Assembly: GCF_001428805.1 (NCBI RefSeq)
Contig: NZ_LMIS01000001.1
Coordinates: 2,797,075 to 2,861,074 of the forward strand
Source: Aeromicrobium sp. Root236
GTDB lineage: Bacteria > Actinomycetota > Actinomycetes > Propionibacteriales > Nocardioidaceae
Reading direction: 5' to 3'
Length of the DNA stretch: 64,000 bases
Shown: piece by piece, positions 22,810 through 44,598 of the stretch
Layout: each line of letters begins with the position of its first letter
Position numbering within the stretch: the stretch's first letter is position 1
Program-made: the position numbers and the translations under genes
Notes under the pieces: generated by a model
What the model was told of the DNA's origin: nothing
Seen by the model: the letters and a program-made list of their open reading frames with translations, nothing else
Databases searched by the model: none

Positions 22810-22845
22810 TGTACGCTCGAGGGTCATTAGGACAGGAGAGTGCGG

Positions 22846-28094: not shown

Positions 28095-28745
28095 ATGCCA
28101 TCTGATGAGAGGTTCGCTGCGCGCGACGCGCTCGAAGAACATTTGAGCACGTTCGACTGGTCTTCCCAGTCGCCCACCAAGGTTCGGATCCTCGAGGCCT
28201 TCCTCAAGCTGACGACTGCCCACGGTTTCGATGCTGTCTCGATGCGGATGATCGCGAAGATGGTCAACATCAAGCCGCCCAGCATCTACAGCCACTACGA
28301 GGACGGGAAGGATGAGATCGTCAGGGAGGCGCTGCGCTGGTACTTCTACCAGTTCGGGTGCGCGCTGTTCGAAGCGGTGGACGAGGCCGAGGATGCGGAT
28401 CAGTTCTGGGATGCGATGGTTCGTGTCCACTTCACCCGTCAGGTCACGTTGCCCGAGAGCAATTTGTGGGACCTGCTCGTCGCGACCGACCGTATGGTGG
28501 GGATCCTTCCAGCACCCGTCAGGGCCGAGGTCTACGTCTGGATCGACCTCTATGAAGACATGTATGGCACGACCGCCCGTGATCTTGGATTCTCTGACTC
28601 GGGCAATGCCGTCAAGGTGGTGATTGCTCTGCTGGAGAGCGCCACCCGATGGGCGGACTGGGACGGCACCGAAGCGAACCTGACCAAGCAGGCGGAGTGG
28701 TCGATTGCGCTGTCCCGCTCGATCCTGCGCGACCAGTCCGGCTAA
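28095..28745 (+). CDS. TetR-family transcriptional regulator (216 aa)
   Basis: The DNA-binding domain includes KVRILEAFLKLTTAHGFDAV and MRMIAKMVNIKPPSIYSHYE, where helix 3 is followed by the usual Tyr-His contact pattern. The sensor domain has an aromatic-rich stretch (LRWYFYQFGCALF). ATG 28095 was chosen; a TTG at 28032 would add 21 residues not seen in the family. It follows the BVMO-ALDH-FAH operon and ends tail-to-tail with the ABM gene (4-base overlap). It may repress the ketone-degradation genes. Confidence 0.85.
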   Translation: MPSDERFAARDALEEHLSTFDWSSQSPTKVRILEAFLKLTTAHGFDAVSMRMIAKMVNIKPPSIYSHYEDGKDEIVREALRWYFYQFGCALFEAVDEAEDADQFWDAMVRVHFTRQVTLPESNLWDLLVATDRMVGILPAPVRAEVYVWIDLYEDMYGTTARDLGFSDSGNAVKVVIALLESATRWADWDGTEANLTKQAEWSIALSRSILRDQSG

Positions 28746-30123: not shown

Positions 30124-31262
30124 CGTGTCCTCCGCTCGACATCGACCCAGTTGCCGGTCTGGGCCGACTCCATGACGGCGCCGATCACCTGCTGCACGTG
30201 AGTTGCGTCAGCGAAGTCAGCCGCGGGCACGTCCTCGCCGCGGATCGACCGAACGAAGCGCTGAAAGAGAATGGCGGTGCCATCGACGTATCCGGTGCCC
30301 ATGCCGCCGACCGGCCACCAGATGTCCTCGTGCTGGTCGCTCAGGACGATCGTTCTCAGGCCTTCTTGATCTGCGGGGTCCGACTTGAGGCTGATCTTGA
30401 CCTCCTCCCGATGGTTCCAGTCGAACTCGACTGTTCCGAGGGTCGTCTCGAGAACGAAGAACAGGCGGTTCTTTCGGCCGGCCGAATACATGCTGGCTGC
30501 GAACGAGCCGATGGCTCCGTTGTCGAACTCCGCGAGCCAGAGAGCAGCATCTTCAAGCAGATCCTGCTCGACACGGTCAGCCTCGGGCGCCCATCCCACA
30601 TCCGTGCCGGGAGCCTTGCTTCGAGCCAGCGCATTCGTTCGGACCACGTCACCGACGAGGTATTCCGCGAGGTCGATGATGTGCGAACCGGTATCGCCGA
30701 CGACGCCGGAGCCGCCAGCGCTCTTCTTCGACCGCCAACCCGAGAGCTCAACCCGACCGAGGCGCTGGTCCTGAAGGTAGTGGCCCCGGAACTGTAGAGG
30801 CAGGCCCAGAGTGCCGTCGTCCAGGAGGCGCTTGATGAAGGTCACGGCTGGGGTGTGCCGGTAGTTGAACCCCACGTGGGCAACGACTCCGGCCTTCTCG
30901 GCAGCCTGGACCATCGCGAAGGCGTCGTCGGTGTCGTTGGTGATGGGCTTCTCAACGATCACATGCTTGCCGGCAGCGATGGCGGCGAGAGCGATCTCAG
31001 CGTGTGAGTCGGGTGGGGTGGTGATGTCGACGATGTCGATGTCATCTCGGGTGACGACCTCGCGCCAGTCCGTGCTCCACTTATCCCAACCGAATCGGGC
31101 CGCCGAGCTGGCAGCGCGATCCTCATCCGCGTCGACCAGCACGCTCTTGCGCACGGTGCCGCCGATGTCGTTGGCGATCGGTGCCAATGCCCATCCGAGG
31201 CTGTGGGCATAACCCATGAATCCGGCGCCGCCGACAATGGCGACTCGCAGCTCTTTCGTCAT
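30120..31262 (-). CDS. Gfo/Idh/MocA-family oxidoreductase (380 aa)
   Basis: The NAD(P)-binding motif VGGAGFMG is at the N-terminus, the family EKP motif (HVIVEKP) at 104-106, and the catalytic-domain pieces GDTGSHIIDLAEYLVGD provide the Asp and His of the active site. Members oxidise a sugar or cyclitol hydroxyl to a ketone. AGGAG precedes the start at 31262. It is divergent from another Gfo/Idh/MocA gene at 31535 and coupled to the IolE-like gene. An IolG-like role is inferred from context. Confidence 0.88.
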   Translation of the reverse strand: MTKELRVAIVGGAGFMGYAHSLGWALAPIANDIGGTVRKSVLVDADEDRAASSAARFGWDKWSTDWREVVTRDDIDIVDITTPPDSHAEIALAAIAAGKHVIVEKPITNDTDDAFAMVQAAEKAGVVAHVGFNYRHTPAVTFIKRLLDDGTLGLPLQFRGHYLQDQRLGRVELSGWRSKKSAGGSGVVGDTGSHIIDLAEYLVGDVVRTNALARSKAPGTDVGWAPEADRVEQDLLEDAALWLAEFDNGAIGSFAASMYSAGRKNRLFFVLETTLGTVEFDWNHREEVKISLKSDPADQEGLRTIVLSDQHEDIWWPVGGMGTGYVDGTAILFQRFVRSIRGEDVPAADFADATHVQQVIGAVMESAQTGNWVDVERRTR

Positions 31263-31534
31263 TTTTCTCCTGTGTCAACGATGAGTCGATCTCGCGATGC
31301 GACGTGTCCACGGTTGTGTGGCCACTGATCCTTCATGACGGTAGTGAAGGGCCGCGGATGGTTCTTGTGCTTCTCAGCCCGGTTAGTTGAATGTCCACGC
31401 CATCGCCGGTGCCTCGACACTTCGGCACTCAGGTGCAAGTTGAGGGCAGGAACGAACTAGCGGACGTTAGGCAACGATATTACGCTTCGAGGCATGAATC
31501 TGATCCTGATGCGAATGACCGGAGGTTGGCTCTG
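31263..31534. promoter_or_regulatory. Divergent promoter region between two Gfo/Idh/MocA genes
   Basis: This 272-base region must hold both promoters. It contains ACGTTAG at 31463-31469, the core of the operator at 40553-40572, but only about 11 of 20 flanking positions agree. No coding frame is supported. Confidence 0.35.
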
Positions 31535-32416
31535 ATGGTGGCGCTGCGTGTGGGACTGGTGGGTGCTGGACCGTGGGCCAAGTTGTTTCACGGCCCGATG
31601 GTCACTGGAGGCCCCGAGACAGAGCTGGTTGCGGTGTGGGCCAGGAGAGCCGACGCGGCGCAAGAGCTCGCCTCGGACCTCGGATCCAAAGCCGTCGACT
31701 CGTACGACGAGCTGCTCGATCAGGTTGACGCCGTGGTCTTCGCGGTGCCGCCAGATGCACAGGCGGACTACGCGATCAAGGCAGCGGAGGCAGGTAAGGC
31801 ACTACTGCTGGAGAAGCCCCTGGGTCTGAGCCTCAAGCGGGCTGAAGAGGTTGCTGACGCCGTGAACGCCTCCGGCGTGGTCAACCAGATCATGTTCACG
31901 AACCGTTACACCGATCACGTTCGTGCATTCTTGGCGGAAGCGTCGTCGAGGACACCGATCGGTGCCATGGCCAACTTCATCAACGGAGCGTGTCTTCCGG
32001 GCGGCACATTCGCAACCCCTTGGCGAATCGAGCTCGGTGCAATCCTCGACCTCGGCCCTCACGTCTTCGATCTCCTCGATGCCGCGGTTGGTCCCATCGC
32101 CGAGATCAGGGCCGCGGGCGATCCGCGGCGCTGGGTGGCGGTCACCGCCGAGCACGAGAACGGTGCGGTCAGTCAGGCAGGCCTGTCGCTGAACAGCACG
32201 GTGCAATCGGACGTGACCGACGTGCGACTCTTCACCGAGCAGGGCGAGCTCAGCACCTCGTTCGTCGCGGCTGACACCGGGCCCAACACGCCCGGGACGA
32301 TTCGCTCGGAATTCGCGGCCGCCGTTGCGTCCGGCACGCCGCACGAGCTGGATGTCAACCGGGCGCTCTACCTTCAGCGGCTCATTGACCAGGCAGCCCG
32401 CTCGTTGACCAACTGA
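31535..32416 (+). CDS. Gfo/Idh/MocA-family oxidoreductase, short form (293 aa)
   Basis: It begins MVALRVGLVGAGPWAKLFHG with the dinucleotide fold, has LLEKPLG (EKP at 93-95), and LGPHVFDLLDAAVGP with the catalytic His region. At 293 residues it is shorter than the 330-390 usual for the family, and most of the loss is in the C-terminal sheet domain. ATG 31535 has GGAGG 9 bases upstream; upstream in-frame sequence is not conserved. It ends at a strong bidirectional hairpin. Probably a second cyclitol or sugar dehydrogenase. Confidence 0.85.
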   Translation: MVALRVGLVGAGPWAKLFHGPMVTGGPETELVAVWARRADAAQELASDLGSKAVDSYDELLDQVDAVVFAVPPDAQADYAIKAAEAGKALLLEKPLGLSLKRAEEVADAVNASGVVNQIMFTNRYTDHVRAFLAEASSRTPIGAMANFINGACLPGGTFATPWRIELGAILDLGPHVFDLLDAAVGPIAEIRAAGDPRRWVAVTAEHENGAVSQAGLSLNSTVQSDVTDVRLFTEQGELSTSFVAADTGPNTPGTIRSEFAAAVASGTPHELDVNRALYLQRLIDQAARSLTN

Positions 32417-33318: not shown

Positions 33319-33351
33319 CATCTTGACATCTTGTAAAGGTCTGCCTAGTGT
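33319..33351 (+). promoter_or_regulatory. Consensus-like promoter with overlapping direct repeat, before the cyclase gene
   Basis: TTGACA (33323-33328) and TAGTGT (33346-33351) are spaced by exactly 17 bases. CATCTTG occurs twice in 8-base register (33319-33325 and 33327-33333), overlapping the -35 box. This would place a regulator, probably the divergent GntR protein, on the promoter. Confidence 0.6.
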
Positions 33352-33419
33352 CCTGGGTCATACGGCTGGAGCGATGGAGTTCGCCGCAGCATTGGACACC
33401 ACGTACTGAGGAGCCACTC

Positions 33420-34391
33420 GTGAATGATCAGGGTCCCCGCACGATCGCTGACTTGCTGGGTTCGGCGCCCCTGAGCAATTGGGGCAAGTGGGGTCCTGAC
33501 GATGAAGTCGGGAGCCTCAACTACCTCACGCCGTCCGAGGTGCTCCGTGGCGTGGCGAGCGTGGTGAGCGGTGAGGTCTTCACTCTCCAGACTCCGGTAG
33601 GCATCCCTGCCGAGGCGGGCGAGCCCGTCTGGCCTGACCGGAGCCGGGCCGTTCGTACCCAGGTTGTCGACGAGTCGTCCTTCGTGCGCGGAGACAAGGA
33701 GACTCCGTCCAGCGGGCACCACTGGGCCGACGACAAGATCGAAATGTTCCTTCAAGGCTCGACGCAGTACGACGCGCTGGGGCATGTCTGGTACGACGAT
33801 CAGATCTGGAACGGGTACTCCGCAGACACCACGATCGGAGGCCTGTCAAAGGCGTCGGTCCTCCCGATCGGGCAGAGGGGCGTTGCAGGCCGTGGAGTGC
33901 TGATCGACATGGCGCGGCATCGCGGCAAGGCAGTTCTTGATCGTGGCGAGGCATTCGATCACGAGGATCTGCTGGAGGCCGCGGCGGCTCAAGGCGTCGT
34001 CGTCGAGAAGCACGACATCTTGATGATTCGTACGGGGTGGATCGGCTCCTACTACTCGCGCACTCGGGAGGACTTCTACCAAGACTGGACCGAGCCGGGG
34101 CTCGTCTACAGCCGGGAGCTTGTGTCGTGGTTCAAGAACCTTGAGATCCCCAACCTCGTCACCGACACGATGGCGAACGAACGTAGTCGCGACCCGGGGA
34201 CCGAGATCGAGATTCCCCTTCACTCGGCGTTGATGCGAAACCTGGGTATCGCGATGACAGAGCTGTGCCTGCTCGAGGACCTGGCTGACGCGTGCGCGGA
34301 GGACAACCGCTGGACGTTCCTCTATACCGCCGCGCCGCTCAAGGTGGCTGGGGCGAGCGGCGCGCCGGTCAACCCTGTCGTGATCCGCTGA
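33420..34391 (+). CDS. Cyclase-family (kynurenine formamidase-like) metal-dependent hydrolase (323 aa)
   Basis: PF04199-type features are GKWGPDDEVGSLNYL near the N-terminus and the metal-binding stretch TQYDALGHVWYDD (about 115-127), a variant of HxGTHxD typical of the large COG1878 proteins. RGVLIDMARHRG and MIRTGWIG follow. These enzymes hydrolyse amides, lactones or ring systems with a divalent metal. GTG 33420 has GAGGAG upstream. It is followed one base later by the IolC-like kinase, so it acts in the same pathway. A ring-opening or lactonase step replacing IolD is an appealing but unproven idea. Confidence 0.85.
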   Translation: MNDQGPRTIADLLGSAPLSNWGKWGPDDEVGSLNYLTPSEVLRGVASVVSGEVFTLQTPVGIPAEAGEPVWPDRSRAVRTQVVDESSFVRGDKETPSSGHHWADDKIEMFLQGSTQYDALGHVWYDDQIWNGYSADTTIGGLSKASVLPIGQRGVAGRGVLIDMARHRGKAVLDRGEAFDHEDLLEAAAAQGVVVEKHDILMIRTGWIGSYYSRTREDFYQDWTEPGLVYSRELVSWFKNLEIPNLVTDTMANERSRDPGTEIEIPLHSALMRNLGIAMTELCLLEDLADACAEDNRWTFLYTAAPLKVAGASGAPVNPVVIR

Positions 34392-34392
34392 C

Positions 34393-35337
34393 ATGGATGT
34401 CATGGTCGCCGGCCGAGTCTGCATCGACCTCTACCCGCAACAGGTTGGGGTTTCCCTGGCGGACGTGACCTCGTTCAGCAAGTCGATCGGTGGTAGCGCG
34501 GCGAACGTCGCTGTAGCCGTCGCCAGGCACGGCCGCGATGTCGCGCTCCTGACGCGCACCGGCGCGGATGCCTTCGGCGCCTACGCAGAGCGAGAGCTCC
34601 GCGGGCTCGGAGTCGACACGACCTGGGTCACACCTGTGAACGGGATGAACTCGGTGCTGACGTTCTGCGAGATGTTCCCACCGGATGATTTCCCTCTCCA
34701 CATCTTCCGCAATCCCACCGCGCCGGACATGTTCCTGACGACTGATGACATCCCACTCGATCTGGTGGCCGACGTGCCTGTCTACTTCGCGACCGCTACG
34801 GGGCTGTCACGGGAGCCTTCGCGGTCGGCGCATCATGCGGCCTGGGCGAGCCGAGGCCGGCGGGCCAACACGATCCTCGACCTCGACTACCGGCCGGGCT
34901 TCTGGGCCAGCGAGGAGGAGGCCTCGGTCGCCGTGAGCGAGGCGTTGGCGCATGTGACGGTCGCGATCGGCAACCTTGAGGAGTGCCGAGTCGCCGTTGG
35001 GGAGACCGAGCCCGACCGCGCGGCGGAGGCGCTGCTTGACCGCGGGGTGGAGATCGCTGTGGTGAAGATGGGGCCGCGGGGGGTGTTGGCCTGGACACGC
35101 GAGGAACGAGTCGAGGTCGCGCCGCTCTCGATTGACGTCGTCAACGGACTCGGAGCTGGGGACGCGTTCGGAGGAGCGTTCTGCCACGGCTTGCTCGAAA
35201 ATTGGAGTCTCGATCGAACGCTCCAGTTCGCCAACGGCGCCGGCGCTCTTGTCGCGACTCAGTTCGAGTGCTCGACGGCGATGCCGACGTCGGCTGCTGT
35301 CGAGGAATTTCTTCGTACATCTGGAGTGGCGAGCTGA
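34393..35337 (+). CDS. PfkB-family carbohydrate kinase, IolC-like (314 aa)
   Basis: PfkB signature 1 is GGSAANVAVA at 33-42. Signature 2 is GLGAGDAFGG near 252-261, with the catalytic Asp. DYRPGFW at 165-171 followed by ASEEEA matches 5-dehydro-2-deoxygluconokinase (IolC) more than ribo- or fructokinases. It phosphorylates a sugar acid or deoxy-keto acid with ATP in the cytoplasm. The start lies immediately after the cyclase stop, and the stop overlaps the AraC start (TGATG). IolC identity is from motif recognition and context; 2-keto-3-deoxygluconate kinase is the alternative. Confidence 0.8.
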   Translation: MDVMVAGRVCIDLYPQQVGVSLADVTSFSKSIGGSAANVAVAVARHGRDVALLTRTGADAFGAYAERELRGLGVDTTWVTPVNGMNSVLTFCEMFPPDDFPLHIFRNPTAPDMFLTTDDIPLDLVADVPVYFATATGLSREPSRSAHHAAWASRGRRANTILDLDYRPGFWASEEEASVAVSEALAHVTVAIGNLEECRVAVGETEPDRAAEALLDRGVEIAVVKMGPRGVLAWTREERVEVAPLSIDVVNGLGAGDAFGGAFCHGLLENWSLDRTLQFANGAGALVATQFECSTAMPTSAAVEEFLRTSGVAS

Positions 35338-36224
35338 TGTCTGCCGCCATGATCGATGTCGCGCGCCATCCCGCCCCAGTACCGACTCCGCAGGTGCGCC
35401 GACGCTTCGACGAGCTGCTGATCTCGCGCTGGCTCGGGGCATCGACCCGGGTGATCGCTGAGCCAACCCGGGTGCACGCGCAACGGTGGCCCTTCCTGGT
35501 TCTCTACGTCATGGTTGGTCCGGTCCGAGTGGAGCAGACCTCGACGCCGACCGATCTGCGCGCCGGGGAGATCGTCCTCCTCTCGAACACGGAGGAACTG
35601 CGCATCGAGTGCGCCGAGAATGCCGCGCTGCTCCTCGTGAACGTGCCGATCGGAGCGGTCGGGCCGTACGGCCACGCACTGGAGTCAGCGGTCGGCCGCG
35701 TGTTCGATACGCGGGAGGGAACCCCCCACCTCGTGGCGCGGATGCTCGACGGTCTTGCCGCCGACCTTGACGTCATCGCGCCGATGCACCCCGGCCAGCT
35801 TGCTCGTCACCTGGTCGGCTTCGTCGCTCTGGCGTGCGAGGACGGACACGTCGACGGGCGTTCACGGGATCCGAACATCGGCCGAGCCAAGGAATACATC
35901 GAGCTCAACCTCAGGGACTTCGAGCTGGGGCCGAACCAGGTCGCACGATGTCTCAACGTCTCGATCCGTACGCTCCATCGAGCTTTCGAGCGCGAGTCCT
36001 TGTCGGTCGCCGGATGGATCAGGTGGCGTCGCCTGGAGCACTGCCGCTCGGAGCTGGCCGATCGGGGATTCGACCACGATTCCGTTAGCGTCATAGGTGC
36101 GCGATGGGGATTCTGGGATGCGGCGCACTTCAGCAAGCTGTTCAAGACCCAGTACGCGGCATCCCCTCGGGCCTACCGTGCGCAGAGCGCACGCCAGGAC
36201 ATCGCCAACGCTGCTTCCGCCTGA
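35337..36224 (+). CDS. AraC-family transcriptional regulator (295 aa)
   Basis: The C-terminal AraC DNA-binding domain (about 200-290) shows AKEYIELNLRDFELGPNQVA, RCLNVSIRTLHRAFERE and SKLFKTQYAASPRAYRAQ, the two helix-turn-helix units. The N-terminal part resembles an AraC-binding-like cupin (VMVGPVRVEQTSTPTDLRAG). The ATG overlaps the kinase stop. It probably activates the surrounding cyclitol/sugar genes in response to a pathway compound. Confidence 0.88.
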   Translation: MSAAMIDVARHPAPVPTPQVRRRFDELLISRWLGASTRVIAEPTRVHAQRWPFLVLYVMVGPVRVEQTSTPTDLRAGEIVLLSNTEELRIECAENAALLLVNVPIGAVGPYGHALESAVGRVFDTREGTPHLVARMLDGLAADLDVIAPMHPGQLARHLVGFVALACEDGHVDGRSRDPNIGRAKEYIELNLRDFELGPNQVARCLNVSIRTLHRAFERESLSVAGWIRWRRLEHCRSELADRGFDHDSVSVIGARWGFWDAAHFSKLFKTQYAASPRAYRAQSARQDIANAASA

Positions 36225-36390
36225 CATCAGCACAGGTTGTGGTGCGGCGTGCAGGTGCAAATTGTGGGCCTTGACGGACAAGCATCCGTATCGGTGTTCG
36301 TCCTACCGTCGAGTTGGCCGAGCTTTCCGGGCCAGGTTCAGATCATCCATCAAATCGCTGCACGAGCGCGTACGACTTGAAGGGCATCCC

Positions 36391-37275
36391 TTGGCTTCCA
36401 CGACGAACTCCGCCGCACCGGTCGACCACCTGCGTGACGAAAACGGGTTCTTCTCCATGGTCGCAGTGGACCAACGGGGATCACTGAGAGCCATGCTCGC
36501 GGAGCAGGCAGGTGGACAGGACGTCAGCGATGAGGACCTCGTCCAGTTCAAGGTTGATGTCGCTACAGAGCTGGCGCCTGGTGCCAGTGGTCTGCTGCTT
36601 GATCGCGATTTCGGGTTCCGCGCCGCCGCCGCTTCTCTTTGTCCAGTCATCCTTGCTGCTGACGTCTTGACCGCTTCCGTCCCGGGTGGCCCGGTGGACC
36701 AAGCGACGATCGATCAAGGCCTGACTCCGGAGATCGCCTACGAGTTCAACGCGCAGGCACTGAAGATGCTCGTGCCGTGGAGCTACGACATTCGATCGGA
36801 AGCCGTCGATCTGGCCCACGAGTTCATGGGCGTCGCGAGGGGGATGGGCTTGCCCGGAATCGTGGAAGGTGTGGTCCGACCCCCCGACTTCGCGAGCTGG
36901 TCGATTCCACGGCGCAACGAGGCGTTGATTGCGGCTGCCCAGGACCTCGCCGCCACGGCCCCTGACCTGTACAAGGCCGAGGTCGTCTATACCTCCCCTG
37001 AGCATCACGAGCTCGCGACGGAGGCTTCGAAGGGAATCACGGAGGCGCTGTCCGTTCCTTGGGTCATTTTGTCGTCCGGAGTGCCGGGCGAGTACTTCGG
37101 CGATGCGCTGTCGGCCGCTGTCGCCGGAGGTGCTCAGGGCTTCCTGGCCGGACGCGCACTCTGGGCGGACGCTTGTGGAGCCGCGGATGCAGCGGCATTC
37201 CTGCGCACCACGTCGAGCAGTCGACTGGCGACATTGGCCGCTCGTGTTCCCGCAGAGGCGGCGCCACGCACCTGA
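36391..37275 (+). CDS. Class I aldolase, LacD/tagatose-bisphosphate aldolase-like (294 aa)
   Basis: MVAVDQRGSLRAML at 23-36 is the LacD-family start of the barrel. Lys 195 in DLYKAEVVYT is the expected Schiff-base lysine, and Lys 125 in LKMLVPW matches a second conserved lysine. The family cleaves ketose (bis)phosphates, or sulfofructose-phosphate in YihT. The TTG start at 36391 has AAGG 8 bases upstream. Next to an IolC-like kinase, it could cleave 2-deoxy-5-keto-gluconate 6-phosphate, the job usually done by IolJ. This would be a non-homologous replacement and is an inference. Confidence 0.85.
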   Translation: MASTTNSAAPVDHLRDENGFFSMVAVDQRGSLRAMLAEQAGGQDVSDEDLVQFKVDVATELAPGASGLLLDRDFGFRAAAASLCPVILAADVLTASVPGGPVDQATIDQGLTPEIAYEFNAQALKMLVPWSYDIRSEAVDLAHEFMGVARGMGLPGIVEGVVRPPDFASWSIPRRNEALIAAAQDLAATAPDLYKAEVVYTSPEHHELATEASKGITEALSVPWVILSSGVPGEYFGDALSAAVAGGAQGFLAGRALWADACGAADAAAFLRTTSSSRLATLAARVPAEAAPRT

Positions 37276-37470: not shown

Positions 37471-37569
37471 ATGACGAACCGACTCTTCACGAACGACGGG
37501 AGCAACCCGCCTCGGGTGACGCCGACACCGGGTTTCGGCGACCGACTCAATGATGGTGCGGCCTCGTGA
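37471..37569 (+). CDS. Small ORF (32 aa) translationally coupled to the ABC ATPase
   Basis: ATG 37471 is preceded by AAAGG and reads 32 codons: MTNRLFTNDGSNPPRVTPTP, then GFGDRLNDGAAS. Its TGA overlaps the GTG of the ATPase gene (GTGA), the same coupling used between other genes here. It has no hydrophobic segment and no recognised domain. It may be a leader peptide that controls ATPase translation, a small partner protein, or a truncated relic of a longer gene. The proline-rich centre could slow ribosomes. Not recognised as a known family. Confidence 0.55.
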   Translation: MTNRLFTNDGSNPPRVTPTPGFGDRLNDGAAS

Positions 37570-38426
37570 CCACCCCGCTGGTTTCGCTCAACGGCATCCG
37601 GAAGTCCTTTGGCGCTGTCGTGTCACTCAAGGGAGTGAGCATCGACGTCATGCCTGGCGAGACGTTCGCGCTCCTGGGGGACAATGCAGCGGGCAAGTCG
37701 ACGTTGATGAAAGTGCTCACGGGTGTCTACCAGCCGGACGCCGGCACCATCGAATTCGACGGGAAGCCGATCGCGTTCCCCAGTCCGTCGGTCTCCCGGA
37801 GCAAGGGGATCGAGATGATCTACCAGGACTTCGCGCTGGCAGACAACCTCGACGTCCGCTCGAACATCTTCTTGGGCCGTGAACCTCGCAAGAATCTCTT
37901 GGGGCCGCTGGTCCGGATCGTCGACACCAAGACGATGGAGCGCGAGACGCAAAGAGTGCTCGACACGCTGGACATTCCGATCAACCCGCGGCTCAAGGTT
38001 CGCCGACTGTCCGGCGGACAGCGCCAGGCCGTGGCCATCGGACGCGCGCTCGCCTTCGACGCACGACTGGTCATCATGGATGAGCCGACCGCGAACCTGT
38101 CCGTCGCGAAGGTCGACAAGCTGATCGAGGTCACCCAGCGCCTGAAGGACCTCGGGATCGCGGTCATCATCATCACTCACCGACTGGATGAGGCGTTCGC
38201 CGTGGCCGACCGGTTCGCCGTGATGCGTCAGGGCGAGGTCGTCGGGCGGTTCGCCAACGGCGAGGTCTCGGAGTCGCAGGTCGCCCACCTGATCTCAACC
38301 GGTGAGCTCTGCGAGCCCAGTCATCCGTCGAAGGAACGCCGGCTCATCGGCAGCACGTCATCGCCCGCGGCAAAAGCAGCGGCGCAGCCAGTCACGTTTG
38401 CAGCACAGGAGGTTCTCGAATCATGA
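37566..38426 (+). CDS. Single-domain sugar-type ABC transporter ATPase 2 (286 aa)
   Basis: Walker A GDNAAGKST (38-46), Q-loop YQDFALADNL, signature LSGGQRQ, Walker B LVIMDEPTAN and switch ITHRLDEA are intact. As in ATPase 1 (20241-21098), there is one nucleotide-binding domain instead of the two usual for CUT2 importers, and long stretches such as VSIDVMPGETFALLGD are shared. GTG start overlaps the 32-codon ORF stop; the stop overlaps the permease start. Likely works as a homodimer. Confidence 0.9.
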   Translation: MTTPLVSLNGIRKSFGAVVSLKGVSIDVMPGETFALLGDNAAGKSTLMKVLTGVYQPDAGTIEFDGKPIAFPSPSVSRSKGIEMIYQDFALADNLDVRSNIFLGREPRKNLLGPLVRIVDTKTMERETQRVLDTLDIPINPRLKVRRLSGGQRQAVAIGRALAFDARLVIMDEPTANLSVAKVDKLIEVTQRLKDLGIAVIIITHRLDEAFAVADRFAVMRQGEVVGRFANGEVSESQVAHLISTGELCEPSHPSKERRLIGSTSSPAAKAAAQPVTFAAQEVLES

Positions 38427-39418
38427 GCAGCACATTGCAGGCGGCGGCCCCGAGCAGGCTCGGCACCGAGGATTCGCTCTCGATCACCACCAAGCTCAGA
38501 TACTTCACTGGTGACTACGGCATCGGATTGATCTTCACCGTGGTCGTCGTCTATCTGAGCGTCACAGCTCCGAACTTTCTCACGGTCGACAACTTGGTCA
38601 ACGTGGTTCGGCAGTCCTCGGTGGTTGGACTCGTCGCGCTCGGCATGACCTTCGTCATGATCACGGCCGGCATCGATCTGTCTGTGGGATCGGTCCTCGG
38701 GTTGTCCGGTATCGGCATGGCGATGGCAGCGCCCGGGAGTGGTTCGGCGTTCATCGTTCCGATCCTCATAGGTCTCGCTGTGGGGGCGGCGGTCGGCTAC
38801 ATCAGCGCGGCGATGGTCACCTGGGGCGCGATCATGCCGTTCCTCGCCACGCTGGCAATGATGGCAGTCGCGCGCAGCGCCGCACTGGTCCTGACCGACG
38901 GCGAGGTGGTGTCGGACGTGAGCGACCCGATCCAATGGTTGGGCAGCGGCTACATCGGGCCGATCCCGGTGCCGGTGTTGCTCTTCTTCGGATTCGCTCT
39001 CATTTCCGACTTCGTGCTCTCGCGTACCAAGTTCGGTTACCACGTGTACGCGGTGGGTGGCAGCGAGGAGTCTGCTCGCAAGGTCGGCATCTCCTCACGA
39101 CGCGTTCTGATCGCCGTCTACATGATCTCGGCACTGTTCGCTGCCATTGCGGGCATGGTTTTGACGGCTCGCCTGGACGGGGCTGCGCCGCTCAACGGCA
39201 CGGGATATGAGCTGCAGGCGATCGCTGCAGTGGTCATCGGGGGAACCAGTTTGTTCGGCGGCATCGGCACGATCCGCGGGACCGTGATGGGTGTGCTGCT
39301 GTTGGGCGTCGTCCTGAACGGTCTCAATCTGCTCAACGTCTCGTCGTACTACCAGCAGGGAGTGCAGGGACTGATCTTGGTCCTTGCTGTGCTTCTCAAC
39401 CGCTGGAAGACCCCATGA
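38423..39418 (+). CDS. Sugar-type ABC transporter permease 2, RbsC-like (331 aa)
   Basis: A multi-spanning membrane protein with ALGMTFVMITAGIDLSVGS, VIGGTSLFGGIGTIRGT and the C-terminal NGLNLLNVSSYYQQGVQGL, nearly the same as in permease 1 (19262-20248). The ATG overlaps the ATPase stop. The upstream operator suggests induction together with the P450 operon, so it may import the P450 substrate. Confidence 0.92.
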   Translation: MSSTLQAAAPSRLGTEDSLSITTKLRYFTGDYGIGLIFTVVVVYLSVTAPNFLTVDNLVNVVRQSSVVGLVALGMTFVMITAGIDLSVGSVLGLSGIGMAMAAPGSGSAFIVPILIGLAVGAAVGYISAAMVTWGAIMPFLATLAMMAVARSAALVLTDGEVVSDVSDPIQWLGSGYIGPIPVPVLLFFGFALISDFVLSRTKFGYHVYAVGGSEESARKVGISSRRVLIAVYMISALFAAIAGMVLTARLDGAAPLNGTGYELQAIAAVVIGGTSLFGGIGTIRGTVMGVLLLGVVLNGLNLLNVSSYYQQGVQGLILVLAVLLNRWKTP

Positions 39419-39479
39419 TCGCCGACGGCTTGCCCCTCGGCCAGCAGCACCACACCCCCACCTCGAAGGAGTAACTTCC

Positions 39480-40451
39480 ATGCAGCACTTTGTTAGACGC
39501 CGAGTCTTCGGCATCGCGGCGGCCGTCACGGCCGTGGCCCTCACGACAACCGCTTGTGCCAGTGGGTCGGGCAGCGGCGGATCGGACGGCGACTCCTTCA
39601 CGGTCGGTGTGTCCATGCTCAATCTGCGTGATCCCGATCTTGCGGCGATGAGCGCGGCCATGAAGAAGCAGGCAAAATCGTCCGGCATCAACTTGGTCAC
39701 TGTGGACGCCAAGGGAGATGTGGCCACAGAGCTGAACCAGGTCGAGGACCTGACAACTCGCAAGGTCGACGCCATCATCATGATGCCGATCGACGGCAAG
39801 ACGAGTCAGAGTGCCGCCAAGCTCGCCAACAGCGCTGACATCCCGTTGTTCATCCTGAGCACCGCGTTCGAGAAGGGCAGCAGCGTCAAGGAGGCGAGCT
39901 ACATCGGTGTCGACGACACCGAGGCCGGACGGATCCAGGCTGAGTACGTCAACAAAATGCTGCCGGACGGCGGCAAGCTGATCTACATCGTCGGCACATA
40001 CGGCGCTTCGTGGACGGATAGGCGCAAAGCCGGCTTCGAGGAGAAGAAGGATGCCAATCTGAAGGTTGCCACGGAGATCCAGGCGAACGGTTCTCGTGAC
40101 GAGGCGAAGCGGGTCATGGAGGACCTGCTCCGTCGGTACTCGAAGAAGGGCGAGATCTCCGGACTCGTCACGCACAATGACGAGATGGCCCTCGGTGCCG
40201 CTTCGGCCATCAAGGAAGCCGGGCGAATGGACGAGTTCAAGGTCATCGTCGGTGTCGATGGCACACCAACCGGTATGAAAGCCATCTCGGACGGCCTGAT
40301 GACCGCTACCGTCAAACAGAACTCTGCCGAGCAGGGGATCAAGGCCGTTGACGTGGTCAAGTCATTCTTGGACGGCAAGAAGGTTGACGCGGCCTACAAC
40401 TTGCCCTTCACGTTGGTCACGAAGGACAACGTGGCTGAGTACCTCAAGTAG
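39480..40451 (+). CDS. Sugar-type ABC transporter substrate-binding lipoprotein 2, RbsB-like (323 aa)
   Basis: The signal peptide has an Arg-rich start (VRRRVF) and lipobox TTAC (Cys 26), then a Gly/Ser linker. The Peripla_BP_4 body has VEDLTTRKVDAIIMMPIDGK, YIGVDDTEAGRIQAEYV and THNDEMALGAASAI, parallel to the protein at 18234-19187. AAGGAG precedes ATG 39480. It is the last gene of ABC operon 2, followed by a terminator hairpin. The ligand would be a sugar, cyclitol or similar polyol, by family. Confidence 0.92.
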   Translation: MQHFVRRRVFGIAAAVTAVALTTTACASGSGSGGSDGDSFTVGVSMLNLRDPDLAAMSAAMKKQAKSSGINLVTVDAKGDVATELNQVEDLTTRKVDAIIMMPIDGKTSQSAAKLANSADIPLFILSTAFEKGSSVKEASYIGVDDTEAGRIQAEYVNKMLPDGGKLIYIVGTYGASWTDRRKAGFEEKKDANLKVATEIQANGSRDEAKRVMEDLLRRYSKKGEISGLVTHNDEMALGAASAIKEAGRMDEFKVIVGVDGTPTGMKAISDGLMTATVKQNSAEQGIKAVDVVKSFLDGKKVDAAYNLPFTLVTKDNVAEYLK

Positions 40452-40552: not shown

Positions 40553-40572
40553 CCTTACAAACGTTAGTTAGG
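40553..40572. promoter_or_regulatory. 20-bp LacI-type operator in front of the P450 operon
   Basis: CCTTACAAACGTTAGTTAGG is symmetric at 8 of 10 pairs about a central CG, the classical geometry of LacI-family operators. It ends 19 bases before the ATG of the reductase gene. The last gene of that operon encodes a LacI-family protein, so autoregulation is likely. Related 20-mers lie at 37408-37427 and 22790-22809. Confidence 0.7.
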
Positions 40573-40591
40573 GTTCGCGGGAGGTGATCCG

Positions 40592-41863
40592 ATGAGAGCG
40601 GAACGGACGATTGAGTCCGATGGACCAGTGCACGTGGCCGTCGTCGGAGGGGGACCGTCGGGTTGCTACACCGCGGCGGCTCTGCGCAAGGTGCTTCCCG
40701 GCGTCCAGATCAGTGTCTTCGACTCGCGCCCTGCGCCCTTCGGACTGATCCGATATGGCGTCGCCCCAGACCACCAGGGGATGAAGAACGTGGCGCGGCA
40801 GTTCGAACGCCTCTTCGCGTCCGGTGGCACGGAGTTCTTCGGAGGCGTGACGGTGGGCGCAGACCTCTCTCTGGAGGAGCTCACCGACAACTACCACGTC
40901 GTCGTGATGGCAACGGGGCTCGCGCAGGACCGACCTCTGGGCATCCCGGTCGACCCCTACGCGGCGCTCTTCGGTGCCGGAGAAGTCATGCGATACCTCA
41001 ACTCAGACCCTGACGAGCGCCTGCGTGCCTGGTCCGACGATCCCTCGCGCCGACTGGGCCAGGATGTCCTCATCATCGGTGCGGGCAACGTCGCCCTGGA
41101 CGTCGCTCGGCTCCTCGCCAAGACCGACGAGGAGTTGATCGGTTCCGACATCGACGACACGGCGCGAGCGTCCCTCGAGATCCCGCGCATTGAATCGATC
41201 CGAATCCTGGGAAGAGGCCCCCGTGAGAAGGCGCGCTGGGACGCCGTGATGCTCACCGAGTTGTGCGCGCTGCCTTCCACGGAGGTGTGGATCGACGGAG
41301 AGCGGGTAACTGCGAGCGATCAAGAGACCCCGACCACGATCGAGATCGAGTTCACTCGAACGCCCTTGCGGGTTGATCATGTGGACGAGCGGAGTGTGCT
41401 CGTGGCTGCCGACTCGGCGGGATCCGGAGCCGAGCACGTCTATGTCGTCGACAGCATCGTCACCGCCACGGGGTTCGTGGCAGCCGATCCGCAGGGGCCC
41501 CATACGTCCTTCGACGGTTCGCTCCCTGTCGTCCGCATCGGCGGATGCTCGTCCGGTGTCCTCGGGAATTTGGCCGAGAATCGCGCGCTGGCGAAAGCTG
41601 CAGCGGCCGAAGTGGTGACCCTTGTCGACCAGAAGACGCGGCGTGCAGGTGCCGATGGAATCCGTCCTCTGATGGACGCGGCCGTCTTGTCATACGACGA
41701 CTGGCTCGCCGTCGATGCCGAGGAAGTTCGCCGGGCCGGCCCGGGCCGGTGTCGGCAGAAGATTTCGTCGCTTCCGGAGATGCATGTCGTCGTGGACGCG
41801 CACCGCCGAGCGGCACATTCCCGCGCCGGTTCGGATGCGACCAGGCAGCAACTGAGCTTGTGA
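40592..41863 (+). CDS. FprA-like NAD(P)H:ferredoxin/flavodoxin reductase (423 aa)
   Basis: An adrenodoxin reductase-type flavoprotein: FAD motif VVGGGPSGCYTAAAL near 18-32, RYGVAPDHQGMKNVARQFER, and NADP motif IIGAGNVALDVARLLAK. The C-terminal part keeps the NLAENRALAKAAA region but is shorter and diverged after RCRQK. GGGAGGTGAT precedes ATG 40592. It is followed by flavodoxin and P450 genes with 14-15 base gaps, so it should pass electrons from NAD(P)H to the flavodoxin. Use of a flavodoxin in place of a ferredoxin partner is unusual for FprA relatives. Confidence 0.9.
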   Translation: MRAERTIESDGPVHVAVVGGGPSGCYTAAALRKVLPGVQISVFDSRPAPFGLIRYGVAPDHQGMKNVARQFERLFASGGTEFFGGVTVGADLSLEELTDNYHVVVMATGLAQDRPLGIPVDPYAALFGAGEVMRYLNSDPDERLRAWSDDPSRRLGQDVLIIGAGNVALDVARLLAKTDEELIGSDIDDTARASLEIPRIESIRILGRGPREKARWDAVMLTELCALPSTEVWIDGERVTASDQETPTTIEIEFTRTPLRVDHVDERSVLVAADSAGSGAEHVYVVDSIVTATGFVAADPQGPHTSFDGSLPVVRIGGCSSGVLGNLAENRALAKAAAAEVVTLVDQKTRRAGADGIRPLMDAAVLSYDDWLAVDAEEVRRAGPGRCRQKISSLPEMHVVVDAHRRAAHSRAGSDATRQQLSL

Positions 41864-41877
41864 GAGAGGAGATGGAT

Positions 41878-42342
41878 ATGACAGAGGTGAACGTCCTTTT
41901 CGGGACGGAGTCGGGAAATGCCGAGATGGTCGCCGACGAGATCGCCGAGGTGATGACCACCGCTGGGCTAGGCGCTGTGGTGACCGAGCTGACGGATGTT
42001 GACATTCCGGATCTCGGTTCTGGAGACGTAGTGGTTCTGATCTCCTCGACGTACGGCGAAGGCGGCCTGTCCGCATCGGCCGAGCCATTCTATGAAGCAC
42101 TCGCCGACGATCGCCCCGCGCTGGACGGGCTCCGCTTCGCAGCATTCGGTCTGGGAGACAGCTCGTATGAGAACTACAACCGCGCCATCGACACGTTGAG
42201 TGCGCTGTTGGTCGAGCTGGGCGCGGAACAGATCGGGATGACCGGGCGCCATGACGCCACGAGCGGGACGTCTCCAGTTGACGTCGCGGTCGATTGGGCG
42301 AACGAGCTTGTCGCCGACCTCCAGCCGTCAATCAACGTCTGA
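41878..42342 (+). CDS. Flavodoxin-like FMN protein, probable P450 electron donor (154 aa)
   Basis: The FMN phosphate loop is LFGTESGNAEMVADEI (7-22). The 50s loop is SSTYGEGGLS (56-65), and FGLGDSSYENYN supplies the 90s loop. It resembles cindoxin and the FMN domains of diflavin reductases. ATG 41878 is preferred over 41872 because AGAGGAG is then 6 bases away. It lies between the FprA-like reductase and the P450 and should shuttle single electrons to the P450. Confidence 0.9.
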   Translation: MTEVNVLFGTESGNAEMVADEIAEVMTTAGLGAVVTELTDVDIPDLGSGDVVVLISSTYGEGGLSASAEPFYEALADDRPALDGLRFAAFGLGDSSYENYNRAIDTLSALLVELGAEQIGMTGRHDATSGTSPVDVAVDWANELVADLQPSINV

Positions 42343-42357
42343 CCCAGAAGGAGCACC

Positions 42358-43548
42358 ATGTCGTCCACGGCTTACACGAGCAAAGAGCTGTTCCCTTGGA
42401 ACAGCGAGGAGTTCCGCACCAACCCTTATCCTTGGTATGCGCGAGCGAGGGATTTGGCGCCGGTTCACCAGACCGACGAACACAGCTTTGTGGTCACGGG
42501 ATACTCGGACGCGATGCACTTTGCCAAGCTGCCCATCATGAGCATCCGTGAGGCCGACTGGGTCAGCCCGGGCCCATGGGCGGCGTTCGAGAACACCGTC
42601 CTCTCGCAGGACCCGCCGATACACACCGCCAAGCGGCGGCTGTTCTCGCGTTGGTTCACTCCAAAGCTGATGAAGCAATGGGTCGAGCTGACCCGTGAGT
42701 CGACTCTGAGCGTGCTCGACGCCTACTCGCCGGGTGACACCATCGACGCGCATTTCGACCTGGGTGTGGTCCCGACCCATTTCACGATGTCACACGTCCT
42801 GGACCTGCCGTTCGGAGATGTGGAGCCACTGTTCTGGGCGCTTTGGGACGCGATGCTGATCCAGGCCAGTGACCCTGTGCCGGGCACGCGCGAGAAGTCG
42901 ATCGCAGGACTCGACTACATGTTCAACACGACGGCTGCCCTGCTCGACGAGAAGTTGGCGAACCCGGGCAACGGTCTGGCCGACGAGCTCATTGCTCTTC
43001 ATCAGAAGGGCGAGATCTCCTGGCGGGACGTGCTGGAGAATGTCGTGCTCTTCTACATGTCCGGAGCCCCCAATCCCGCCTACCTGATCGGGTCGGCCTT
43101 CGAGGTCTTCGCCGAGCACCCGTACGTCATGACGGACTTCCGTGACAAGCCAGAATATCGGGACCGGATCATCAACGAGGTCGCTCGTCTCAACCCGGTC
43201 GAGCTCATCATCACCCGTTTCCCCACCGAGGACGTGGAGATCAGCGGCGTCCACATCCCGGCCGGGTCGCGCGTGCAATTCCCGATCGGCGCGGCCAACC
43301 GGGATCCCGCCGTGTTCTCCAACCCCGACGAGTTTGACTATGACCGGCCGATTGACGCCAGTCGAAATCTGACGTTCGGCCTTGGGACGCACGCGTGCGC
43401 TGGGCAACTGATCTCCCGGTCCGAGACCGAGATGATCCTGTCGATCGTGGCCGAGCGGTACTCGTCGGTGTCGCTTGCCGGCACTCCGAAGCAGGTCCGC
43501 ACGGATCGGCTGGCCGCATATGAGTCCCTTCCTGTGTCCCTGTCGTAA
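42358..43548 (+). CDS. Cytochrome P450 with atypical I-helix, P450cin-like redox set (396 aa)
   Basis: The heme Cys 347 is in FGLGTHACAG (340-349) and the ExxR motif is EVAR (274-277), so the fold is intact. The I-helix motif, normally A/G-G-x-D/E-T, reads SGAPN at 235-239: Pro 238 replaces the acid and Asn 239 the threonine. P450cin likewise has Asn in place of this Thr and uses a flavodoxin. The enzyme hydroxylates or O-dealkylates a small molecule with O2. AGGAG precedes ATG 42358. Operon context (reductase, flavodoxin, LacI; sugar-type importer upstream) suggests a terpene ether or an O-alkyl polyol; the substrate is not readable. Confidence 0.92.
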   Translation: MSSTAYTSKELFPWNSEEFRTNPYPWYARARDLAPVHQTDEHSFVVTGYSDAMHFAKLPIMSIREADWVSPGPWAAFENTVLSQDPPIHTAKRRLFSRWFTPKLMKQWVELTRESTLSVLDAYSPGDTIDAHFDLGVVPTHFTMSHVLDLPFGDVEPLFWALWDAMLIQASDPVPGTREKSIAGLDYMFNTTAALLDEKLANPGNGLADELIALHQKGEISWRDVLENVVLFYMSGAPNPAYLIGSAFEVFAEHPYVMTDFRDKPEYRDRIINEVARLNPVELIITRFPTEDVEISGVHIPAGSRVQFPIGAANRDPAVFSNPDEFDYDRPIDASRNLTFGLGTHACAGQLISRSETEMILSIVAERYSSVSLAGTPKQVRTDRLAAYESLPVSLS

Positions 43549-43566
43549 GCACGCGGAGGTGCCCGA

Positions 43567-44598
43567 ATGGCAAGGAAACAAGGCGAGCGGGGAAGGCGTC
43601 CGACGCTTGACGACGTCGCTGCGCTTGCCAACGTCGGGCGCGGCACAGCCTCTCGAGTGCTGAACGGATCACCACAGGTTTCGGAGTCCACGAAAGAAGC
43701 CGTGCTGGCTGCCGTCAAGTCTCTGAGCTACATGCCCAATCAGGCTGCTCGGTCCCTGGTCGCGGGACGAACGGGGGCGGTGGCCCTCGTCATTTCGGAG
43801 TCTGAGGAGCGCATCTTCAACGAGCCGTTCTTCGGCGCTGTGGTGAAAGGAATCTCCGAGGGTCTCAGCCAGGCGTCTCGACACCTTGTGCTGCACTTGG
43901 CGCCGGCCAGAACTCGAACGGCGAACATCCTCGACTTCCTCGGCAGCAACCAGGTGGATGGCGTGCTGACCATGTCGCTGCGAGAAGGTGACGACCTCCC
44001 GACGGCCGTGGCAGAACGTGGAGTCCCGGTCGTGGGAGGCGGTCGGTCGTCAGCCTCACTCGACGGGTCATGGGTCGATGTCGACAACCGCGCGGGCGGT
44101 CGTTTGGCAGCGAGCCACCTGATCGACCGCGGGCGCGGAGTCATCGCTTCAATCACAGGACCGCGCGACATGCGGTCCGGCCGGGAGCGTTTGGCCGGAT
44201 TCGTTGAGGTGCTGGAGGCGTCTTCGATCCGGCCGGACCAGTCCTTGATCGTGGAGGGTGACTTCACCGAAGGCTCGGGCTATCGAGGTATGCTCGCCCT
44301 GCTGGACCGCCGGCCTGACACCGTCGCGGTGTTCGCAGCGAGCGACATGATGGCCCTTGGCGCGATCAGGGCGATTCGCGAGAGTGAGCGCACAGTTGGG
44401 GGCGACATTGCTGTTGTGGGCTTCGACGACTCACGTGAGGCAGCCACAGCCGTTCCTCGGCTGACGACCATTCGCCAGCCCGCTCGAGACATGGGGTGGT
44501 GCATGGCCAGCTCGATCATCCGCCTCATCGACGAGCCGGGCATTCCACCGATTCAGATCGTTCTGCCCGTAGAACTTGTCGTGCGAGATACCTCGTGA
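43567..44598 (+). CDS. LacI-family transcriptional regulator (343 aa)
   Basis: The N-terminal LacI helix-turn-helix is TLDDVAALANVGRGTASRVL, followed by NGSPQVSESTKEAVLAAVKS and the hinge helix NQAARSLVAGRTG. The periplasmic-binding-protein-like sensor domain follows, with DVDNRAGGRLAASHLIDRG and ASDMMALGAI. ATG 43567 is 18 bases after the P450 stop with GGAGG upstream, so it is co-transcribed. Its likely operator is the 20-bp palindrome at 40553-40572 and relatives. LacI sensors usually bind sugars or polyols, which supports a sugar-like inducer. Confidence 0.93.
   Translation: MARKQGERGRRPTLDDVAALANVGRGTASRVLNGSPQVSESTKEAVLAAVKSLSYMPNQAARSLVAGRTGAVALVISESEERIFNEPFFGAVVKGISEGLSQASRHLVLHLAPARTRTANILDFLGSNQVDGVLTMSLREGDDLPTAVAERGVPVVGGGRSSASLDGSWVDVDNRAGGRLAASHLIDRGRGVIASITGPRDMRSGRERLAGFVEVLEASSIRPDQSLIVEGDFTEGSGYRGMLALLDRRPDTVAVFAASDMMALGAIRAIRESERTVGGDIAVVGFDDSREAATAVPRLTTIRQPARDMGWCMASSIIRLIDEPGIPPIQIVLPVELVVRDTS

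Follow-up and report, generated by a model that had tools for sequence, protein, structure and literature searches.

The window, the whole 64,000-nucleotide stretch of Aeromicrobium sp. Root236, carries four consecutive genes on the forward strand (40592-44598), whose order, reading frames and spacing agreed with the initial annotation. The first encodes an FprA/XplB-like FAD-dependent NAD(P)H reductase (40592..41863; Pyr_redox_2; 49% identity to the reductase of Rhodococcus erythropolis R138). It is followed by a free flavodoxin (41878..42342, +; Flavodoxin_1, 3.2e-27; an alternative in-frame ATG start lies at 41872), by an XplA-like, CYP177-like cytochrome P450 (42358..43548, +) and by a LacI-family regulator (43567..44598, +; LacI 1.9e-16, Peripla_BP_3), with intergenic gaps of 14, 15 and 18 bases respectively.

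The ExxR motif (E274-R277) and the haem loop (FGLGTHACAG from residue 340, Cys347) of the P450 are normal, while the I helix carries SGAPNP at residues 235-240 (43060..43077, +) in place of AGx[D/E]T, extending the SGAPN originally read at 235-239. The motif was aligned with relatives and with P450s encoded elsewhere in this genome; of the eight other genes six were used, one having been lost to the motif filter and one having no locus. In these six canonical enzymes the columns of P238-N239 read E-T, D-T, E-T, E-T, D-T and E-A. As P238-N239 falls on the D/E-T columns, no normal acid-Thr pair is hidden elsewhere in the I helix, the possibility that the initial annotation had left for alignment to decide. 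An AlphaFold2 helix break at the motif was set aside, the model being based on four sequences with a mean pLDDT of 58.9 and values below 50 at residues 235-238.

A phmmer search of the PDB returned XplA (2wiv) as the best solved relative of the P450, at an E-value of 1.5e-117, the next enzyme reaching 5.2e-71. Identity was 46.4%, over 99% of the query, to XplA of both Gordonia KTR9 and a plasmid of Rhodococcus DN22. In P450 nomenclature, enzymes sharing about 40% or more identity belong to the same family and those below 55% to different subfamilies. Its identity would thus place the window P450 in the CYP177 family, in another subfamily than XplA, and, as is characteristic of CYP177, its I helix has no acid-alcohol pair. 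A CYP177E subfamily already appears in a table of PMC7998510, and a passage of PMC10820124 states that DN22 XplA is 100% identical to that of strain 11Y.

Each of the three redox components has a counterpart in XplA/XplB (CYP177A1; Rhodococcus 11Y/DN22, Gordonia KTR9), which likewise lacks the acid-Thr pair and combines a flavodoxin with an adrenodoxin-reductase-like partner. The flavodoxin is homologous to the N-terminal domain of XplA (51%, and 60% to the corresponding R138 domain), and the reductase is of the XplB type, showing 35% identity to XplB of KTR9 and lying next to the flavodoxin gene. The two systems differ in that the window flavodoxin is a separate gene, with a stop before the P450, rather than fused to it as in XplA proper; in the motif, Pro-Asn-Pro against Met-Ala-Ile; and in the catabolic genes around the window operon, which are of another kind. 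The absence of the pair from XplA is already discussed in the part of PMC8081977 consulted, so that the loss, though unusual, has a precedent.

The database comparison proposed at the outset recovered a Pro/His-Asn pair in 14 of the 22 XplA-type relatives read, their hosts being Actinomycetota and Proteobacteria. Since these 14 P450s were grouped by motif, their all carrying it is no test of kinship, which the tree provides instead. With the motif columns masked, the window P450 and those of R138, L009, L010 and L011 formed one group with 100/100 support, and all five are Pro-Asn, which argues against chance as the source of the motif; three further relatives (59-64%), found later, are also Pro-Asn. 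Support for one origin of the 11 Pro/His-Asn P450s then available was 97/95 and dropped to 79/82 on masking, so that these sequences make a single gain likely but not firm. The masked tree requires two separate changes for the fusion to flavodoxin (R138 and XplA); one fusion followed by splits in several lines could also account for the pattern. Relatives, own genome included, were counted in 1 of 396 genomes of a phylum sample, 3 of 394 for the class, 2 of 293 for the order, 8 of 294 for the family and 2 of 49 for the genus, and in 3 of 295 for the genus of L009, the L009 genome included; each sample had its own threshold, the top few candidates were scored in the larger ones, and several of the matches have 32-38% identity and no Pro/His-Asn pair.

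The P450 belongs to a region of some 28 kb that also includes catabolic genes. An APC-family permease (16269..17801, +; AA_permease) is 62-64% identical to permeases of L009, L010, L056 and L057. Three genes have counterparts in five P450 loci: a 2-hydroxyacid dehydrogenase (21531..22511, -; 2-Hacid_dh_C; 63-71%), which also occurs at 60% or more in 10 of 72,556 plasmids, a LysR regulator (22840..23796, +; 57-67%) and a cyclohexanone-monooxygenase-like Baeyer-Villiger enzyme (23900..25522, +; 69-74%; 4e-177 to 7v8o). The fingerprint of Type I Baeyer-Villiger monooxygenases is FxGxxxHxxxW[P/D], and it is intact in the island enzyme as FGGRIVHTGAWP at residue 160. There follow an SSADH-like aldehyde dehydrogenase (25554..26921, +; start inferred within the ORF 25278-26921; Aldedh 2.6e-137, SSADH models scoring best but below cut-off), a FAH-family hydrolase (26955..27842, +; FAA_hydrolase 6.1e-72; at least 57.8% in the 10 plasmids that have the dehydrogenase) and a TetR regulator (28032..28745, +) common to 9 of the 12 other P450 loci and to plasmid pRM41A, with matches at E<=1e-25 in 23 of 72,556 plasmids.

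A second group of genes is of inositol type, and all six have counterparts in R138: an IolE-like isomerase/dehydratase (29119..30123, -; 53%), two Gfo/Idh/MocA dehydrogenases (30120..31262, -; 62%, and 31391..32416, +; 61%), a PF04199 cyclase-family hydrolase (33348..34391, +; 67%), an IolC-like kinase (34393..35337, +; IolC_N 358 bits against a cut-off of 300; 67%) and a DeoC/LacD-type aldolase whose true start lies inside its ORF (36097..37275, +; DeoC 1.3e-19; 49%). As the island genes occupy both strands across 28 kb, their belonging to one pathway is an assumption.

The surroundings were compared across 13 loci with a Pro/His-Asn P450, window included; for genome G507 the neighbouring GHMDV P450 was scored, its Pro/His-Asn P450 (L027) being 37% identical. 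Flavodoxin and XplB-like reductase were each present in 11 of 13 loci, TetR and the APC permease each in 10 (the permease in 9 of 12 without the window), and the block of 2-hydroxyacid dehydrogenase, LysR, Baeyer-Villiger enzyme, aldehyde dehydrogenase and FAH hydrolase in 6, of which two were added by P450 searches carried out once the pattern had been noticed. The permease, TetR and the four enzymes of this block, or most of them, are again neighbours of P450s of this kind in Streptomyces, Nocardia and Modestobacter. The clusters of Streptomyces, Nocardia vaccinii and Modestobacter (L009, L010, L011, L056, L057) share the free flavodoxin, the XplB-like reductase and the complete block, and their P450s read SGGPNP (59-60%); they differ from the window in that the inositol-type block, LacI and sugar importer are unmatched in the stretches compared. 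Plasmid pLRE138 of R138 (L013) has the P450 of highest identity (67.8%), also SGAPNP and with the reductase upstream, and shares TetR with the window, but its P450 is fused to flavodoxin, its APC permease is only 39% identical and the 29 kb read contain no Baeyer-Villiger/FAH block. Since each of the two blocks is thus found without the other, they may serve different substrates.

Other loci retain less. G1330 (64%) has P450, flavodoxin, reductase, TetR and an MFS gene, with neither block nor APC permease in 53 kb, and no flavodoxin match was found near the Sphingobium and S. chiapasense P450s in the stretches compared. Close relatives of the APC permease occur on two plasmids without a P450 match (StoSoilB13, Caballeronia). 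A relative of the cyclase gene was present in 65 plasmid records, four of which were examined besides R138: the annotation of the Blastomonas and Corynebacterium plasmids contained no related cluster, and in the unannotated Cupriavidus and Paraburkholderia stretches only the cyclase, of the window genes queried, matched strongly. The Klebsiella operon had no close copy in E. coli genomes.

The LacI gene adjoins the P450, as initially described, and its control of the operon is suggested by this position; no counterpart above 29% identity occurs in any of the 12 other Pro/His-Asn P450 loci, and by this comparison the gene is local to the window genome and outside the conserved unit. An imperfect palindrome, ACAAACGTTAGT, lies 5' of the reductase (40557..40568, +) as the sole full match in the window. 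In all, 3 matches were counted, two of them this palindrome read on either strand, where 0.88 were expected, and 5 of 100 shuffles gave counts as high; the palindrome may possibly hint at a LacI operator, weakly. Promoter and terminator scans gave nothing firm. The sugar-type ABC importer placed beside the operon is present (37566..40451, +; ATPase, permease and Peripla_BP_4 binding protein by Pfam, RbsB-like below cut-off), but it is one of two in the window and neither recurs with the P450 family, the transporter that does being the APC permease.

Taken together, the gene content supports the flavodoxin-fed P450 in a catabolic setting first proposed, and we give an even chance to an unfused XplA/XplB system that opens the catabolism of a small plant-derived, amine-bearing cyclic compound by O2-dependent oxidation. 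Electrons would pass from NAD(P)H through the FAD reductase and the flavodoxin to the P450, as three separate components. The APC permease might import the substrate, an alkaloid or amino-cyclitol, although the breadth of this family makes it no proof of an amine. The P450 would most likely start the pathway by attack next to a heteroatom, with either removal of a methyl group as formaldehyde or hydroxylation beside nitrogen; of these, demethylation is probably the reaction. Some related loci show amine or one-carbon signs: a GcvT-like gene together with FolD and PurU some 14 kb away from the G507 GHMDV P450; FolD and PurU again, roughly 6 kb from the P450 of S. canus; S-(hydroxymethyl)glutathione dehydrogenase adjoining the Sphingobium P450 and the Caballeronia APC gene; and a caprolactamase-like HyuA, scoring below cut-off, near the P450-flavodoxin operon of G507. 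FolD and PurU, though, also serve as housekeeping genes, and the family-library scan of 32 window proteins recognised no gene for formaldehyde or one-carbon metabolism. Ring breakdown would then fall to the dehydrogenases, the Baeyer-Villiger enzyme, the aldehyde dehydrogenase and the FAH hydrolase, joined here by the inositol-type enzymes. With Pro/His-Asn replacing the acid-Thr pair, proton delivery would have to take another route, for instance via Asn239, through ordered water or by way of polar groups on the substrate.

Demethylation of a cyclitol-like compound, as first suggested, is possible, the R138 relative adjoining IolE-, MocA- and IolC-like genes, and methylated cyclitols are a possible substrate class. 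A tentative alternative, clearly behind an amine-bearing substrate, is that a methylated inositol or sugar (e.g., pinitol or a rhizopine-like O-methyl-inosamine) has its O-methyl group removed by the P450 and that the cyclitol then passes to the MocA/IolE/cyclase/IolC/aldolase block for degradation. Of the loci compared, R138, which carries the fused P450 most closely related to that of the window, is the only other one to have the inositol-type block; the single plasmid, of 72,556, with a MocA homologue at E<=1e-60 is that of R138, the kinase exceeds the IolC cut-off and sugar-type importers are nearby. However, the block is found in only 2 of the 13 loci, window included, no IolD or IolB was recognised among the 32 proteins scanned, and the APC permease and the Baeyer-Villiger and FAH block are left unexplained.

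A reductive P450, removing an O- or N-containing leaving group under air as the missing pair would allow, appears unlikely. It would have the redox chain of XplA, which denitrates RDX reductively, and the review PMC8081977, in the part consulted, ties loss of the pair to reductive chemistry in air; RDX is man-made, though, and the literature found states no natural XplA substrate. The catabolic neighbours fit oxidation better, as do the one-carbon genes of certain related loci, and the scan of 32 window proteins recognised no gene related to nitro compounds or nitrite.

Hydroxylation of cineole or another terpene followed by Baeyer-Villiger cleavage is very improbable: like the window P450, P450cin (CYP176A1) is paired with a flavodoxin, cindoxin, and has Asn in place of the usual Thr, and the island has a cyclohexanone-monooxygenase-like enzyme, but polar-solute importers and inositol-type enzymes ill suit a volatile ether, and P450cin, once taken as the guide, is not named among the best 60 of 330 PDB matches. 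Nothing specific speaks for cineole.

For the amine-bearing plant metabolite, tropane and nortropane alkaloids are the most specific candidates, as a lead suggested by gene comparison. Plasmid pRM41A (pRme41a) of Sinorhizobium meliloti Rm41 is credited with calystegine use in a passage of PMC3556828. It encodes relatives of the island 2-hydroxyacid dehydrogenase (63%), FAH hydrolase (59%) and TetR (42%), but many other catabolic genes are aboard, the literature found does not place the calystegine genes on it and it gave no match to a P450 of the window type. Among CC-licensed PMC papers on calystegine or tropane catabolic genes, P450cin-like Baeyer-Villiger clusters and XplA homologues, none was recognised as describing the system.

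More speculatively, and somewhat doubtfully, the XplA line may have arisen in TetR/APC-permease catabolic islands of rhizosphere bacteria, from enzymes that demethylated tropane/nortropane-like alkaloids or attacked their rings oxidatively, with the pair lost long before RDX and flavodoxin fused more than once; the explosive chemistry of XplA would then be a by-product of an older design. XplA is in use for work on cleaning explosive-contaminated land. Its natural role is not stated in the literature found, and the unfused relatives, set in conserved islands of plant-metabolite type, give testable candidate substrates and a hint of its origin. Lack of the acid-Thr pair is not peculiar to the RDX enzyme but a stable trait across a wider group, and this group offers a natural series for how P450s activate, or avoid activating, oxygen without the usual proton relay.

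The genome is a single contig of 3,919,167 bases, of which the window covers positions 2,797,075-2,861,074, and four intact, tightly spaced and co-directional genes were read at 40592-44598, in agreement with the initial annotation. They encode a reductase (40592-41863, +; Pfam Pyr_redox_2), a flavodoxin (41878-42342, +; Flavodoxin_1), a P450 (42358-43548, +) and a LacI regulator (43567-44598, +; LacI/Peripla_BP_3). The P450 showed the ExxR motif as E274xxR277, Cys347 within FGLGTHACAG and SGAPNP at residues 235-240, SGAPN at 235-239 having been read correctly before. When the protein was aligned with those of six of the genome's eight other P450 genes, P238 and N239 fell exactly on columns occupied by E-T, D-T, E-T, E-T, D-T and E-A, so that the acid-Thr pair is missing and not displaced; a normal D/E-T pair elsewhere in the I-helix, the objection that the annotation had raised against its own reading, did not appear.

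The best solved relative was XplA, the RDX-degrading P450 CYP177A1 (2wiv, 1.5e-117; 4ep6, 2.6e-117), with the next one, 'CYP107B1' (8q5j, 5.2e-71), far behind. In a plasmid search the XplA proteins of Gordonia KTR9 and Rhodococcus DN22 were each 46.4% identical to the window P450; PMC10820124 gives the DN22 proteins as identical to their strain 11Y counterparts, and a P450 survey tabulates a CYP177E subfamily in Gammaproteobacteria (PMC7998510). The earlier interpretation, guided by P450cin, has to be rebuilt on XplA. Homology shows the reductase, flavodoxin and P450 to be a predicted electron chain of the type formed by XplA and its reductase XplB. XplA has its flavodoxin fused at the N-terminus, with the reductase gene immediately upstream, whereas the window flavodoxin is free.

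The database search for Pro-Asn P450s proposed in the annotation was carried out on XplA-type relatives, and Pro or His followed by Asn occupied the pair positions in 14 of the 22 read, the window included. Pro-Asn was found in 11 (the window, Rhodococcus erythropolis R138, L009, L010, L011, L056, L057, L058, the near-copies of Klebsiella and Enterobacter, and the second S. chiapasense copy) and His-Asn in three (the first S. chiapasense copy, Sphingobium and the sampled genome G507), Pro240 being conserved in 13 of the 14; three more Klebsiella matches, H6-H8, lie outside the 22. The other eight have Met-Ala (XplA), Met-Asp or Leu-Asp, and the standard pair therefore occurs in none of the 22. 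Since grouping by motif is partly circular, a tree with masked motif columns was used as a test: support for one group of the 11 [P/H]-N P450s then in hand was 97/95 with these columns and 79/82 without. In a masked tree of 18 P450s, the window protein paired (100/99) with the closest protein found, the SGAPNP P450 of R138 on pLRE138 (67.8% identity), inside a five-member group (100/100) that leaves XplA outside. The R138 P450 is flavodoxin-fused, as is XplA, unlike that of the window. Fusion requires two changes on this tree, and two separate fusions are the simplest reading, though a fused ancestor may instead have split.

Partners were then counted in 13 [P/H]-N loci, including the window, over stretches of 13 to 67 kb with near-copies counted, a variation in length that makes absences weak. 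Flavodoxin and an XplB-like reductase were each present in 11, TetR and an APC (amino-acid-permease-type) transporter in 10, and LacI in one, G1330 giving only generic matches at 29%. The 44% entry for G507 refers to a neighbouring GHMDV P450, its own Pro/His-Asn P450 giving 37%. The association of APC, reductase and flavodoxin with the P450 reaches beyond the group, to the GHMDA P450 of G1464. Counter to the pattern, in G1330 an MFS gene joins the P450, flavodoxin, reductase and TetR, and within 53 kb there is neither an APC gene nor Set 2 nor Set 3 (the two gene blocks described below); none of the partners matched in the Sphingobium stretch compared. Plasmids of Klebsiella grimontii (L016:10219-16983) and Enterobacter hormaechei (L017), one carrying a VIM plasmid name, share one unit of reductase, flavodoxin, SGSPNP P450, MFS transporter, TetR and divergent APC permease. 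On the 11.5 Mb contig of G1113, P450s with identical scores lie at 0.33 and 11.2 Mb (L051/L056 and L053), near its two ends, the arrangement expected if a linear Streptomyces chromosome carries terminal repeats.

Two more gene blocks of the window are found again alongside such P450s. Set 2 comprises a 2-hydroxyacid dehydrogenase (21531-22511), LysR (22840-23796), a cyclohexanone-monooxygenase-like enzyme with an intact fingerprint (23900-25522; 4e-177 to 7v8o), an aldehyde dehydrogenase (about 25554-26921) and an FAH hydrolase (26955-27842). The full block occurs in six of the 13 loci, recurring beside the P450 at 57-74% in Streptomyces RP5T, Nocardia vaccinii, Modestobacter and two further genomes of the Streptomyces sample, G1113 and G1121. 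The APC permease (16269-17801) accompanies it at 62-64% in four of these five, and was not found in the Modestobacter stretch compared. Set 3 (29119-37275), present in two of the 13, encodes an IolE-like protein, two Gfo/Idh/MocA dehydrogenases, a cyclase-family hydrolase, an IolC-like kinase and a LacD-like aldolase, and among the loci compared was seen again, at 49-67%, only beside the R138 P450. Within the stretches compared, the window alone of the 13 loci unites both sets. The region immediately preceding the permease (5275-15650) may belong to the same island; it holds a CocE/NonD-type hydrolase (282.6 bits, cut-off 66.3), an oligopeptide-type ABC importer (about 7206-12646, represented in the scan by its binding protein), an AMP-dependent ligase (12681-14198) and a DAO-family oxidoreductase (14235-15650). 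Two related sugar-type importers (18234-21506, -; 37566-40451, +) both match, at 45-80% identity, an Arthrobacter StoSoilB13 operon (L034:10221-13120) flanked by two APC genes resembling that of the window. A GH106 alpha-L-rhamnosidase-like protein (45368-48352, 1e-56) adjoins a TetR gene, and an annotated alpha-L-rhamnosidase lies about 11 kb from the R138 P450.

Among 72,556 plasmid records, the 2-hydroxyacid dehydrogenase was found at 60% or more in ten, each of which also has the FAH hydrolase at no less than 57.8%, including S. meliloti Rm41 pRM41A, potato-rhizosphere Ochrobactrum quorumnocens, Arthrobacter StoSoilB13 and S. chiapasense pB, the last also bearing two Pro/His-Asn P450s. The TetR of the island (28032-28745; E<=1e-25) was present in 23 records, among them eight of these ten and seven of the eight plasmids that carry a P450 from this group, five of the seven being a single Klebsiella/Enterobacter lineage, with Klebsiella H6-H8 assigned by identity alone. 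The Rm41 genome paper credits pRM41A with calystegine use (PMC3556828); the position of the calystegine genes on it was sought and not found. All 246,023 bases of pRM41A gave no P450, flavodoxin or reductase match (E<=1e-12 over half the query), as expected if the P450 strips an N-methyl group, which calystegines lack; an unrelated common step would fit equally well. A cluster ordered gloA, 2-hydroxyacid dehydrogenase, GMC oxidoreductase, class III aminotransferase, HyuA/HyuB, NTF2, GMC and FAH is 74-96% alike between an Agrobacterium plasmid and three other Hyphomicrobiales plasmids (L043:4653-18933; pRM41A 139886-153312; L042; L044), and is a candidate for a calystegine or related alkaloid pathway.

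Related loci give hints of amine and one-carbon chemistry. In G507, FolD and PurU (above curated cut-offs) and a GcvT/TMAO-demethylase-like gene (below) stand in a row at L045:206-3078, some 14 kb away from its GHMDV P450, which suggests one-carbon capture from demethylation. FolD and PurU are common genes. S. canus has FolD above cut-off about 6 kb from the P450 and PurU by annotation, and an S-(hydroxymethyl)glutathione dehydrogenase above cut-off adjoins the Sphingobium P450 and also a Caballeronia APC gene. The G507 operon with the Pro/His-Asn P450 sits amid HyuA/HyuB-like genes, HyuA matching caprolactamase alpha best, below cut-off. A scan of 32 window proteins recognised no such one-carbon gene.

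We give about even chances to an amine-bearing cyclic substrate under oxidative attack. Either the APC permease or a sugar-type importer, of which the window has two, would bring the compound into the cell. Oxidation by the P450, most likely a demethylation or a hydroxylation next to a heteroatom, would follow, and later enzymes would oxidise, cleave and split the ring. The Asn in place of Thr, with prolines on either side, may mould the oxygen pocket, protons arriving by another route. A methylated cyclitol or sugar, with IolE- and IolC-like proteins nearby and no emphasis on an amine, is a rather unlikely substrate; the stress formerly laid on LacI and a sugar importer proved local to the window genome. 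XplA-like reductive chemistry appears improbable, even if a review connects loss of the Asp/Glu-Thr motif in XplA with reductive denitration in air (PMC8081977). Cineole, suggested by the P450cin parallel, is hardly credible. The value of the system lies in giving XplA an unfused relative in natural surroundings, together with testable candidate substrates.
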